DNA from: Thermosipho japonicus
GTDB lineage: Bacteria > Thermotogota > Thermotogae > Thermotogales > Fervidobacteriaceae
Direction of reading: 5' to 3'
Assembly: GCF_014201655.1 (NCBI RefSeq)
Contig: NZ_JACHEX010000001.1
Location: forward strand, 372,001 to 436,000
Length of the DNA: 64,000 bases
Translations under genes and position numbers: made by a program
In this document: positions 6,796 to 10,767 of the stretch, piece after piece
Position numbering within the stretch: position 1 is the stretch's first letter
How the letters are laid out: each line of letters starts with the position of its first letter
Notes under the pieces: generated by a model
Databases searched by the model: none
What the model was told of the DNA's origin: nothing
What the model saw: the letters and a program-made list of their open reading frames with translations, nothing else

Positions 6796-6825
6796 TTGAC
6801 CTAATCATAAAATACATGTTATACT
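6796..6825 (+). promoter_or_regulatory. Promoter of the pur operon
   Basis: TTGACC at 6796-6801, an 18-bp spacer and TATACT at 6820-6825. The predicted transcript starts near 6831-6833, only a base or two before the leader hairpin. Confidence 0.7.
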
Positions 6826-6833
6826 TAAGTTGT

Positions 6834-6866
6834 ACCTTTAATTTGGTCCCGTGAGGCCAAAAAGGA
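6834..6866 (+). promoter_or_regulatory. PyrR-binding-type leader hairpin covering the leader-peptide ribosome-binding site
   Basis: The RNA can fold with a lower stem (6835-6838 with 6862-6865), a three-base 5' bulge (6839-6841) and an upper stem (6842-6846 with 6857-6861). The apical segment is UCCCGUGAGG at 6847-6856. The apex matches the PyrR anti-antiterminator consensus UCCNGNGAGG, with flanking bases changed in a pair-preserving way. The 3' arm includes AAGGAG, the ribosome-binding site of the leader peptide at 6877. The layout (hairpin at the RNA 5' end, then leader peptide, then terminator) resembles the PyrR-controlled leader described for Thermus pyr operons. Here the downstream genes are for purine synthesis. 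PyrR itself is not in the window. Confidence 0.65.
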
Positions 6867-6876
6867 GTGAGAAAAA

Positions 6877-6972
6877 ATGAGCAAATTGGACTCAATACTT
6901 TTGTTATTTAAATATCTTAGAAAAATCCCTGCCATCTATGATGGTAGGGATTTTTTGCTTTATAGGGGGTGA
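6877..6972 (+). CDS. 31-residue leader peptide spanning the pur attenuator
   Basis: A short frame with ATG at 6877 after a good AAGGAG site (6862-6867) and a TGA at 6970-6972, just ahead of the purE start. It begins [16 protein letters not shown] and has no recognisable domain. It is not enriched in one amino acid as a classical charged-tRNA attenuator peptide would be. Its frame runs completely across the terminator hairpin at 6922-6956, so a translating ribosome would prevent that hairpin from forming. Its ribosome-binding site lies in the leader hairpin, which suggests that translation of the peptide is the regulated step. Confidence 0.6.
6922..6956 (+). terminator. Intrinsic terminator (attenuator) in the pur leader
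   Basis: A stem of at least 12 bp (6925-6936 with 6940-6951) has a three-base loop at 6937-6939 and runs directly into a T-tract (6951-6956). It lies between the promoter and purE and inside the leader-peptide frame, so it is placed to attenuate the whole pur operon. Confidence 0.8.
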
Positions 6973-6976
6973 TGAG

Positions 6977-7429
6977 TTGGTAAGTATTATTGCAGGTAGC
7001 AAAAGTGATTCAAACATAGTAGAAAAAGCAGAAAAAGTCCTAGAAGAATTTTCAGTACCTTATGAAACAAAATATCTTTCAGCGCACAGAACTCCAGATT
7101 TATTAGATGAATACATTAAAAACTGTGAACAAAAAGGTACTAAGGTATTTATTGCAATCGCAGGTGGAGCAGCCCATCTTCCAGGTGTAATTGCTTCAAA
7201 GACATTAAAACCAGTCATTGGGGTACCAGTAAAATCTAACGATTTAGGGGGATTAGATTCTTTATTATCTATAGTTCAAATGCCAAATGACATCCCAGTT
7301 GCTACCGTGGGGATCGATAGGGGGAAAAATGCCGCATTACTTGCAATTGAAATACTTGCGTTAAGCGATGAAAGTTTATCAAAAAAACTAAAAGACTACC
7401 GCTCAAAGCTTGTGGGGAAGTATCTTTAA
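6977..7429 (+). CDS. purE: N5-carboxyaminoimidazole ribonucleotide mutase (PurE, class I)
   Basis: PurE converts N5-CAIR to CAIR in de novo purine synthesis. The protein has 150 residues from a TTG at 6977, which is 7 nt after an AGGGGG site and 4 nt after the leader-peptide stop. It opens with [11 protein letters not shown]. The AIR/CAIR-binding His is in LSAHRTP and the glycine-rich loop [11 protein letters not shown] is intact. The frame stays open further upstream through the terminator, but that part is not family-like. It is the first gene of purECSQL and may be translationally coupled to the leader peptide. No purK, needed to make N5-CAIR, is in the cluster. Confidence 0.93.
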
Positions 7430-7440
7430 GGGGGATATTT

Positions 7441-8127
7441 ATGGAAGGAAAAACAAAGATTGTTGAAGATTTTGGAAATTACGTTATTTTAAATTTTAAA
7501 GACGATATTACTGCTGGGGATGGGGAAAAACATAACGTTTTAGAAGGAAAAGGTGCAATTTGTGCAGAAATTACTGCCATTTCAATGAAATATTTAAACT
7601 CAAGGGGGATATATACACAATTTTTAGATTTCATTACACCTAACAAAATAAAAGCAGTATCATTAAAAATGTTACCACTTGAAGTTGTAGTAAGGTTAAA
7701 AAAAGCGGGATCTTTTATAAGAAGATATGGTGGTAATGAGGGAGAAGAATTTAAAGAACCTCTTGTTGAATTTTTTATAAAAGATGATGAAAGGCATGAC
7801 CCTATGGTATGTAAAAATCATCTTGTATTATTTGGGATATGCAACGAAAAACAAGCAGAAGAAATTGAAAAAAGTGCTAAAAAAACCGCAATTGAGCTTA
7901 AAAAATTTTTTGAAAAACTTGGATTTGATCTTTGGGATATGAAGTTTGAATATGGAATTGACAATGAAGGAAAAGTCTGTTTAGGTGATGAAATTTCACC
8001 TGATACCCTGAGACTTAGAAAAAAAGATGGTATATTTGATAAGGATGTATATAGAAAAGATTTAGGAGATCCACTTGAAAAATATAGGGAGGTTCTCTCA
8101 GCATGCAGAAATTTAAATTTGTTGTAG
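7441..8127 (+). CDS. purC: SAICAR synthetase (phosphoribosylaminoimidazole-succinocarboxamide synthase)
   Basis: This enzyme couples CAIR to aspartate using ATP, the step after PurE. The 228-residue length is normal for the short bacterial type. Recognisable segments are MEGKTKIV at the start, the ATP-binding VVVRLKKAGSFIRRYG region, the DDERHDPM segment and LGDEISPDTLRL, which carries acidic residues for Mg and substrate. ATG at 7441 follows AAGGGGG, 11 bp after purE. Its last 25 bp overlap purS, so translation of the two is likely coupled. Confidence 0.94.
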   Translation: MEGKTKIVEDFGNYVILNFKDDITAGDGEKHNVLEGKGAICAEITAISMKYLNSRGIYTQFLDFITPNKIKAVSLKMLPLEVVVRLKKAGSFIRRYGGNEGEEFKEPLVEFFIKDDERHDPMVCKNHLVLFGICNEKQAEEIEKSAKKTAIELKKFFEKLGFDLWDMKFEYGIDNEGKVCLGDEISPDTLRLRKKDGIFDKDVYRKDLGDPLEKYREVLSACRNLNLL

Positions 8128-8351
8128 ATATTCAATACAAAAGCAACGTAAGAGATCCAAGAGGAGAAACTATTGCAAGAGTTTTAAGAGAAGAAAGTAA
8201 CATTCCAATAGAAAGCATACGAATTGGTAAATCCATACATGGGGAAGTTCAAGCCGAAAGCAAAGAAGAAGCAGAAAAATTAGTTATAAAAGCTTGTGAA
8301 GAATTACTGGTTAACCCTGTTACAGAGGAGTTTAAGGTGGAGATAAAATGA
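8103..8351 (+). CDS. purS: FGAM synthase subunit PurS
   Basis: An 82-residue subunit of the three-part FGAM synthase (PurS, PurQ, small PurL). PurS dimers bridge the glutaminase and synthetase subunits so that ammonia can pass. The sequence shows the compact family pattern: a first beta strand (FKFVVDIQYK), DPRGETIARVL and the SIRIGKSIHGEV segment. ATG at 8103 lies inside the end of purC behind GGGAGG. The gene overlaps purQ by four bases, which suits equal production of complex subunits. Confidence 0.92.
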   Translation: MQKFKFVVDIQYKSNVRDPRGETIARVLREESNIPIESIRIGKSIHGEVQAESKEEAEKLVIKACEELLVNPVTEEFKVEIK

Positions 8352-8980
8352 AAGCTGGAGTTATAGTATACCCAGGTTCAAATTGCGATCGAGATGCATT
8401 TTATGCATTAAAACTTGCAGGCTTTAAACCATATTTTGTTTCCACAAAGGACAATCTAGATGATTTTGAGCTTGTAATTCTTCCCGGAGGATTTTCATAC
8501 GGTGACTATTTAAGGCCTGGCGCTGTATCAGCAAAAGAATCATCTAATTTAAAAAAATTCGCAGAAAATGGTGGATTTGTACTTGGAATTTGCAATGGAT
8601 TTCAAATACTTGTAGAAATGGGACTCCTTCCAGGCGGATTACTTCAAAATAAAAACGGAAAATTTATTTGTGAAACCGTTGAACTTGAAGTTGTTAATAA
8701 CGAAACACCTTTTACATTAATGTATAAAAAAGGAGAGGTAATAAAATTACCAATTGCACATGGCTTTGGAAGATATGTTATAGATAAGCAACCAAATGTT
8801 GTATTCAAATACAAAGAAGATGTAAATGGTTCTGATCAAAACATAGCAGGAATAATAAATGGGAATATTTTAGGAATGATGCCACATCCAGAAAGAGCCG
8901 TTGAAAAAATAATGGGAAGTGACGATGGAATAAAGCTTTTTAAATCACTTTATGAATACATAAGAGGTGGTAAAAAATGA
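8348..8980 (+). CDS. purQ: FGAM synthase glutaminase subunit PurQ
   Basis: A class I glutamine amidotransferase that supplies ammonia for conversion of FGAR to FGAM. The 210-residue protein has the nucleophile Cys82 in LGICNGFQ, the oxyanion loop PGGFSYGDYLRPG and the catalytic His-x-Glu in MMPHPERA. It overlaps purS upstream and purL downstream by four bases each, which indicates strict co-expression of the three subunits. Confidence 0.95.
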   Translation: MKAGVIVYPGSNCDRDAFYALKLAGFKPYFVSTKDNLDDFELVILPGGFSYGDYLRPGAVSAKESSNLKKFAENGGFVLGICNGFQILVEMGLLPGGLLQNKNGKFICETVELEVVNNETPFTLMYKKGEVIKLPIAHGFGRYVIDKQPNVVFKYKEDVNGSDQNIAGIINGNILGMMPHPERAVEKIMGSDDGIKLFKSLYEYIRGGKK

Positions 8981-10767
8981 AATACTTAGACATACTCGAA
9001 AAAAGCCTTGGTAGAAAAGCCACCATAAACGAAATAGAAGCTTTTACAGTAATGTGGAGCGAACACTGTGGATACTCTCATACCAAAAAGTATATAAAAA
9101 GACTTCCACTTGTAAGTGAGGAATCGGGGAACGCAGGTCTTGTACCTCTAAATGATAAGTATTATATATCGTTTAAAATTGAAAGCCATAACCATCCAAG
9201 TGCAATTGAACCTTATAACGGAGCTGCAACTGGTGTTGGAGGGATAATAAGAGATATACTTGCAATGGGAGCAAGGCCTACTGCTATTCTTGATTCATTA
9301 CATATGCACAAGATAATAGATGGAATAATAGAAGGAATAGCAGATTATGGAAATTCAATAGGTGTTCCTACTGTAGGTGGTGAACTAAGAATCAGTGACG
9401 CCTATAAATATAATCCACTTGTAAACGTTATGGCAGCAGGTATAGTAAAAAAAGAAAATATTATAACTTCTAAAGCAACAAGAAAAGGACAGGTAATTGT
9501 AATTTTTGGTGGAGCAACCGGAAGAGATGGGATTCACGGAGCTTCATTTGCTTCAGAAGACCTTACCGGTGAAAAAGCAAACAAACTTTCTATTCAAGTT
9601 GGTGACCCATTTGCAGAAAAACAACTCATTGAAGCATTTTTAAAAATGGTAGAAGAAGGCCTGGTAGAAGGTGCACAAGATCTTGGGGCTGGCGGTGTTC
9701 TTTCTGCTACTTCAGAGCTTGTAGCAAAAGGTGGGTTTGGAGCAATTATAGACTTAGAAAATCTTCCACTTAGAGAACCTAACATGAAACCAATAGAGAT
9801 ATTAATAAGTGAAAGTCAGGAAAGAATGGCTGTAATAACATCAAAAGAAAAAGCAAAAAAAATACTAGAAATAGCTAAGGATCACTTACTATTCGGAGCA
9901 ATTGTCGGAGTAGTTACGGATGATGGTATCTACCACGTAAGGTACAATGGTGAGACCATTTTGAAAGTTCCTGCAAAATTACTTTCAAATGCTCCTGAAG
10001 AAGAAATATATGAATTTGAAAAAGATGCACTTCCAGAAAATATAGATCTTACATTTTCTCCTGTTGATGCAAGCCATGTCTACACTCAATATGATTATAT
10101 GGTTGGAACTGATACTATAATAAAACCAGGATATGGAGCTGCTCTCATGAGAATAAAAGATGAAGATATATATTATTCTCTTCTTACCCATAGCAGAGCA
10201 GACATTGGAAAAGTTAGTCCATATTGGGGTTCTTTTATTGCTGTTATTGAAAGTATTAGAAAAACACTAGCTGTAGGTGCCAAGCCACTTGCAATAACCG
10301 ATTGTATTAATTATGGAGATCCTGATGAAGAACCTAAAGGACTAGCTGCCATGATGCAAGGATTGAAAGATGCCTGTGAATTTTCTAATGTAAAAGTTGC
10401 AAGTGGAAATGCTTCACTTTACAATACAAACAACAAAATTCCAATTCCACCAACAATGGTAATTGGCATGGTAGGAAAAGCTACCAAGGCATTATTACCT
10501 AAATCTGGAGATTTATATCTTATTGGTTGGAAAGATTTTGATCTAGAAAGAGAAAAAATTCTTTGGAATGAAATTAAAAAACAAACATCAAAAGGAAATT
10601 TTGTACTCGCTTTATCAAACTACAAAGAAAATCCAACATACACAAAAAATTTAGGTTTAAAAATTTCCGATATTCAACACGCCCCGATTCACCAGCTAAT
10701 TTTAGTAATAGGAAATGATGTAAAAAGTGACTTGCCTACAAAAAAGATAGGTAAAGCCACGATTTAG
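8977..10767 (+). CDS. purL: FGAM synthase, small-type PurL
   Basis: The ATP-dependent synthetase subunit that turns FGAR into FGAM with ammonia from PurQ. At 596 residues it is of the short PurL form known from Thermotogales rather than the roughly 740-residue Bacillus form. Visible signatures are WSEHCGYSH with the catalytic His30, ESHNHPSAIEPYNGAATGVGG (given here in part: HNHPSAIEP) and GAQDLGAGG in the second AIRS-like half. It is the last gene of the operon and ends in a strong terminator. None of purF, purM, purN, purH or purD follows. Confidence 0.95.
   Translation: MKYLDILEKSLGRKATINEIEAFTVMWSEHCGYSHTKKYIKRLPLVSEESGNAGLVPLNDKYYISFKIESHNHPSAIEPYNGAATGVGGIIRDILAMGARPTAILDSLHMHKIIDGIIEGIADYGNSIGVPTVGGELRISDAYKYNPLVNVMAAGIVKKENIITSKATRKGQVIVIFGGATGRDGIHGASFASEDLTGEKANKLSIQVGDPFAEKQLIEAFLKMVEEGLVEGAQDLGAGGVLSATSELVAKGGFGAIIDLENLPLREPNMKPIEILISESQERMAVITSKEKAKKILEIAKDHLLFGAIVGVVTDDGIYHVRYNGETILKVPAKLLSNAPEEEIYEFEKDALPENIDLTFSPVDASHVYTQYDYMVGTDTIIKPGYGAALMRIKDEDIYYSLLTHSRADIGKVSPYWGSFIAVIESIRKTLAVGAKPLAITDCINYGDPDEEPKGLAAMMQGLKDACEFSNVKVASGNASLYNTNNKIPIPPTMVIGMVGKATKALLPKSGDLYLIGWKDFDLEREKILWNEIKKQTSKGNFVLALSNYKENPTYTKNLGLKISDIQHAPIHQLILVIGNDVKSDLPTKKIGKATI

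Follow-up and report, generated by a model that had tools for sequence, protein, structure and literature searches.

A PyrR-type hairpin and leader reading frame ahead of purECSQL in Thermosipho japonicus: a probable translation-coupled attenuator of purine genes

Introduction

PyrR is known to act on pyr, car and uracil-permease genes, and PRPP is a known antagonist of the protein. The Bacillus subtilis attenuators at pyrR, pyrP and pyrB (Rfam family RF00515) have an apex of consensus UCCNGNGAGG, an upper stem, a purine-rich bulge, a lower stem and a downstream terminator. A coupled transcription–translation attenuator, with a PyrR site that overlaps the start region of a leader peptide and a leader frame that reaches the terminator, has reportedly been proposed for the pyr operon of Thermus, and PyrR of Mycobacterium smegmatis is said to repress translation. 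Purine synthesis in B. subtilis is regulated by PurR, a protein of phosphoribosyltransferase fold that acts on DNA.

Bacillus PyrR binds RNA together with UMP or UTP, and GTP and GMP oppose binding (PMC7430163, which also gives the apex consensus); that article credits the antagonism by purine nucleotides to Chander et al. (2005). In the searchable literature, whose coverage is partial and leaves most subscription papers outside, no report of PyrR control of purine genes was found.

The leader described here has the RF00515 parts and the layout of the Thermus model. Unlike the B. subtilis attenuators it precedes a purine operon, has no supported antiterminator and holds the Shine–Dalgarno sequence of a leader open reading frame (ORF) within its hairpin; unlike the Thermus element it lies in a different phylum and would control purECSQL, not pyr genes. 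It is counted as new because of this purine target; the hairpin is a member of RF00515 and the mechanism is of the coupled kind that is reportedly found in Thermus.

Results and discussion

Anatomy of the leader

The window, i.e. the whole stretch of 64 kb that was analysed (G000:C1:372001-436000), belongs to a genome of 1.92 Mb from the family of Fervidobacterium and Thermosipho. The original prediction was of a promoter whose start site touches a hairpin with the PyrR apex, a leader peptide with its Shine–Dalgarno sequence in the 3' arm of this hairpin and a terminator wholly inside the leader frame, together directed at purECSQL. The features were as follows.

6796–6825, + strand: sigma-70-type promoter (TTGACC 6796–6801, 18 nt spacer, TATACT 6820–6825, extended −10 TG), from sequence and genus comparison
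6835–6865, + strand: PyrR-type binding hairpin (RF00515 61.3 bits; custom model R1 56 bits; covariation)
6847–6856, + strand: hairpin apex UCCCGUGAGG (PyrR consensus UCCNGNGAGG), from sequence
6861–6867, + strand: Shine–Dalgarno sequence AAAGGAG of the leader ORF, the first five bases (AAAGG, 6861–6865) being the hairpin 3' arm
6877–6972, + strand: leader ORF of 31 codons, running through the terminator, with its stop on or next to the purE Shine–Dalgarno sequence GGGGG
6921–6955, + strand: intrinsic terminator inside the leader ORF, 16 bp stem plus T-run (−22.4 kcal/mol, z = −6.9)
6977–7429, + strand: purE, TTG start (TIGR01162)
7441–8127, + strand: purC (TIGR00081, below cut-off, E = 1e-44)
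8103–8351, + strand: purS (TIGR00302)
8348–8980, + strand: purQ (TIGR01737)
8977–10767, + strand: purL (NF010690)

The anatomy was confirmed. From the promoter, transcription is expected to start at about 6831–6833, against the hairpin that begins at 6835; both hexamers are mostly kept in all four members of the genus. The hairpin consists of a CCUUU/AAAGG lower stem, an AAU bulge, a UUGGUC/GGCCAA upper stem and the hexaloop CCGUGA. The Shine–Dalgarno sequence does lie partly in its 3' arm and is followed after 9 nt by the AUG at 6877, and the five genes downstream were identified as purE, purC, purS, purQ and purL by protein family models. The enclosure of the terminator in the leader frame holds here but not in every relative: the stop lies within the terminator in the pur leader of G023 and 1 nt ahead of the terminator stem in that of G017.

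A scan of the whole window with cmscan gave a match to RF00515 (PyrR binding site) at 6831–6960 with 61.3 bits (E = 5.4e-6), above the Rfam gathering score of 54 bits; this was the sole Rfam match within the 64 kb and the sole match to RF00515 over the cut-off in the genome. The other three genus members give 61.6–64.2 bits, likewise over the gathering score. Weaker RF00515 matches elsewhere in the genome (≤30 bits) were rejected as noise, having no overlap with matches to the apex consensus, and R1, run at E ≤ 0.05, reported none of ten further places in the genome that match the apex consensus. The consensus apex stands in a hairpin with a purine-rich internal bulge (AAU), as membership of RF00515 demands. 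Known members precede pyrimidine genes, whereas the hairpin at 6835–6865 precedes purECSQL; such a location is habitual in the known members, and the RNA family, being defined by structure, does not require it. Judged by its sequence, the hairpin is almost certainly a PyrR-type element belonging to RF00515, and binding of PyrR is predicted.

The hairpin copies from the order (n = 22) align without gaps as CCUUUAA-N-YU-SS-YCCNGNGAGG-SS-ARAAAGGAG. All paired cells (100%) are standard pairs, and GC↔CG exchanges occur at two pairs of the upper stem, so that the stem has changed on both sides in relatives, as had been called for; with the partner shifted by one column as a control, pairing falls to 62–67%.

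PyrR and its occurrence with the hairpin

The proposal demanded a pyrR gene, and the genome has a single canonical one (L009:1486-2016, minus strand), which scores 233 bits with NF003548 against a curated cut-off of 218 bits. The solved structures closest to the protein are all PyrR. In an alignment with the B. subtilis sequence, the PRPP loop VILVDDVLFTGRT is intact and R19, H22, R27, H140, R141, R146 and K152 are conserved, T18 being replaced by Met; these eight positions, of which seven are identical, we take to be the RNA contacts. The suggestion that a PyrR relative had changed its ligand thus found no support, since there is one PyrR, with a conserved PRPP loop and seven of the eight presumed contacts as in B. 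subtilis.

Across the order, pyrR is present in 28 of 45 genomes, which are related species and hence not 45 independent trials. The hairpin reaches R1 scores of ≥49 bits in 28/28 of the genomes with pyrR and stays at ≤24 bits in 17/17 of those without it, where a strong hairpin occurs in 0/17. Two genomes inside the family that have no pyrR (G029 and G030) are missing the hairpin too.

Pur leaders across the family

Within the family, 14 genomes have pyrR as well as purE, and in every one of them the pur operon is headed by the hairpin, the order being hairpin–uraA–purK–purE in eight and hairpin–leader ORF–purE in six. Most Fervidobacterium-like genomes have a single operon, hairpin–uraA–purK–purE–purC–purS–purQ–purL (L087–L091; L224), the gene order in G012 and G014 being read from an equal hairpin-to-purE distance of about 2.5 kb. 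G017 and G018 lack uraA; after the hairpin come leader ORF, terminator and purE, as in Thermosipho.

This distribution could suggest that the pur hairpin is a relic of an ancestral uraA–pur operon, now without a regulatory role: the Fervidobacterium hairpin belongs to the uraA that heads uraA–purK–purE, and Thermosipho and two other lineages have no uraA there. Such a reading is hardly credible, however, given that the 33 nt hairpin is invariant in four species of the Thermosipho lineage except at two apex N positions while the surrounding leader diverges, and that leader ORF and terminator have been retained.

In all six pur leaders the Shine–Dalgarno sequence of the ORF lies within or adjoins the 3' arm of the PyrR hairpin, the start codon follows 7–9 nt past the hairpin GGAG and the ORF stays open as far as the terminator or through it. 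The frame is kept across species, as had been expected, and the peptide sequence is not; terminator sequences differ among the six as well. ORF length alone is mildly unusual, the probability of an equally long ORF being 0.08–0.57 per leader, and it is the fixed start-codon spacing, along with the parallel cases given below, that carries the argument for coupling.

A Bacillus-type mechanism, in which PyrR stabilizes an anti-antiterminator, the terminator has a separate antiterminator as its competitor and translation has no role, agrees with the alignment of the three-hairpin RF00515 model over the whole leader. The middle (antiterminator) part of that alignment is, however, poorly paired. When upstream sequence was tested for pairing with the 5' arm of the terminator, four of the six leaders did no better than shuffled sequences and two did slightly better (a level reached by 8–9% of shuffles), so that an antiterminator in the pur leaders was rejected as unsupported. 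This mechanism would also leave unexplained a Shine–Dalgarno sequence in the hairpin at fixed spacing from the start codon, and we regard it as quite unlikely.

PyrR sites at other genes

The search for further copies of the hairpin yielded a second site in Thermosipho, found in 4/4 genus members (L002, L047–L049), at the uraA gene for a uracil-permease-like NCS2 transporter. In G000 it lies at G000:C8:292-324, below the Rfam cut-off, with an R1 score of 59.6 bits; it sits directly on the ribosome-binding site of uraA itself and has no terminator. No PyrR site is present at the pyrCKDFE operon in 4/4 genus members, and the PyrR sites found in Thermosipho are therefore those at uraA and pur only. 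Neither a PyrR site nor a regulatory Rfam match lies upstream of the purF-N-H-D-M operon, so only half of the purine pathway would be under PyrR.

Leader ORFs also occur at both of these other operons. At pyrCKDFE in the four genus members (L260:3560-3690 in G000:C2; L294–L297) a short ORF (e.g. MKTFEQKLKINIFHINP) has its stop adjoining a terminator rich in G+C; the PyrR apex is missing, and a G-run lies close to the probable start site. This may be another type of leader-peptide attenuator or start-site-dependent control. Ahead of purF (L292:10240-10400, minus strand) the ORF MKDKRLLRIKSLSFLYYIFPVREL is followed by a terminator.

Fervidobacterium and similar genomes have the PyrR hairpin at pyrCKDFE with a leader ORF of 73–97 codons through the terminator (L245–L250, L256). 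Most of these ORFs begin MVNLVQRGQN, with the hairpin just past the start codon, and several extend up to or past the start of pyrC. The hairpin copies inspected in f2, a sister family that L174/L176 show to be Pseudothermotoga-like, sit at uraA, and purE is at a different place.

When 84,980 species were scanned by pattern for hairpins with a Shine–Dalgarno sequence in the 3' arm, at least 118 hairpins were obtained. Among the matches listed, 109 were assigned to a gene: 38 to carA/carB, 28 to pyrB, 24 to uraA, 17 to pyrR, one to pyrK and one to purE. The purE case (L215) is that of G018, one of the listed uraA cases (L224) is the head of a uraA–purK–purE operon, and the match at the pur leader of G017 (L201) was too short for assignment. 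Purine targets among the matches listed occur only in the Fervidobacterium/Thermosipho family, the other classifiable elements preceding pyrimidine genes.

Clostridial carAB leaders (L129, L132 and others) have the hairpin, a start codon at equal distance and a short ORF that stops within the terminator or beyond it. Among the matches listed, 47 leaders, mostly clostridial, were scored, and in 42 the leader stop lies at or past the base of the terminator. The layout is that of the Thermosipho pur leader and the target differs, carAB being a pyrimidine (carbamoyl phosphate) target. By its layout this is a widespread candidate for coupled PyrR attenuation at carAB that the three-hairpin Rfam model does not describe, and its recurrence would make the coupled attenuator a recurrent kind. 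At least about 37 carAB leaders from clostridia and related organisms (L128–L243) were seen to combine PyrR hairpin and Shine–Dalgarno sequence, short ORF and terminator, the stop being mostly inside the terminator.

Proposed mechanism

Direct observation covers the anatomy of the pur leader, how it is conserved and covaries, the co-occurrence of hairpin and pyrR, and the association with pur throughout the family. From these we infer binding of PyrR, its ligand, blocking of the terminator by ribosomes and the direction of the response, as follows. PyrR with UMP or UTP would bind and stabilize the hairpin, hiding the Shine–Dalgarno sequence of the leader ORF and keeping ribosomes out of the leader; in the untranslated leader the terminator would fold and transcription would end ahead of purE. 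With the RNA free of PyrR, when UMP is low or when PRPP or purine nucleotide is abundant, ribosomes would translate the leader, and one that reached the terminator would block its folding and let RNA polymerase continue into purECSQL. Nearest-neighbour energies at 70 °C, for which the parameters were extrapolated, are −1.0 kcal/mol for the free hairpin and about −9 kcal/mol for the terminator; with the former near neutral and the latter stable, bound protein would decide whether the Shine–Dalgarno sequence is hidden.

The element is thus very probably a PyrR-controlled, translation-coupled transcription attenuator of purECSQL that works through leader ORF and terminator. Coupling is favoured over an antiterminator because the Shine–Dalgarno sequence is in the hairpin at fixed spacing, the ORF reaches the terminator and no clear antiterminator pairing was found.

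Alternatively, the hairpin might repress translation of the leader ORF only, the terminator being a constitutive partial one or an RNA-processing site and pur being affected by translational coupling between leader stop and purE. The overlap of the leader stop with the purE Shine–Dalgarno sequence in the T. japonicus window fits this, as does uraA, at which the same hairpin would act without a terminator. Yet terminators are retained in the pur leaders despite their sequence differences, and in G023 and G017 the leader stop is not beside purE, which makes this alternative highly unlikely. Sequestration of a Shine–Dalgarno sequence by the hairpin is common to the pur leader, the uraA and pyrB sites seen here and, reportedly, the M. 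smegmatis site. In the latter cases the first structural gene's own site is hidden, whereas the coupled attenuator at Thermosipho pur would act through leader ORF and terminator and hence on transcription.

Ligands and evolution

UMP is likely to be the co-repressor, and a pyrimidine sensor probably controls purine synthesis in the Thermosipho/Fervidobacterium group. If the Bacillus ligands hold, purine synthesis would fall when pyrimidine is plentiful and rise with PRPP or purine nucleotide. The sign is odd, as GTP or GMP would by analogy with Bacillus relieve repression of a purine operon, amounting to positive feedback. A response to PRPP makes sense because PRPP is a purine precursor and the genome has no Bacillus-type PurR that passes the family cut-off.

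It could well be, and could equally not be, that PyrR of the Thermosipho lineage no longer acts on the pyrimidine biosynthesis operon at all and is confined to the control of uracil uptake and purine synthesis, as a PRPP/UMP sensor in place of PurR, after uraA and its hairpin joined the pur operon in an ancestor of the family and uraA was later replaced by leader ORF and terminator. B. subtilis PurR would then be a counterpart of the same phosphoribosyltransferase fold acting on the same pathway, with DNA as its target. That operon fusion came first and the leader ORF afterwards is suggested by the distribution of the two arrangements, and the order could be reversed.

If true, a purine target throughout the family would link both nucleotide pathways directly through a single protein and would be a case of regulon rewiring by operon fusion in which intermediate states survive in living species. 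The antagonism of PyrR by purine nucleotides, published (PMC7430163, citing Chander et al., 2005) but puzzling, would likewise gain a function.

Weaker PyrR hairpins (R1 30–34 bits) were seen at the ribosome-binding sites of uraA homologues in the more distant family f10 of the phylum (L252, L253 and L254, in G090, G082 and G099), and a similar uraA-type site occurs in Petrotoga (L148). As for the genes behind the leader, the operon of the Thermosipho genus (6977–8127 in the window) has kept purE without purK, Fervidobacterium having purK–purE, and PurE may here work without PurK.
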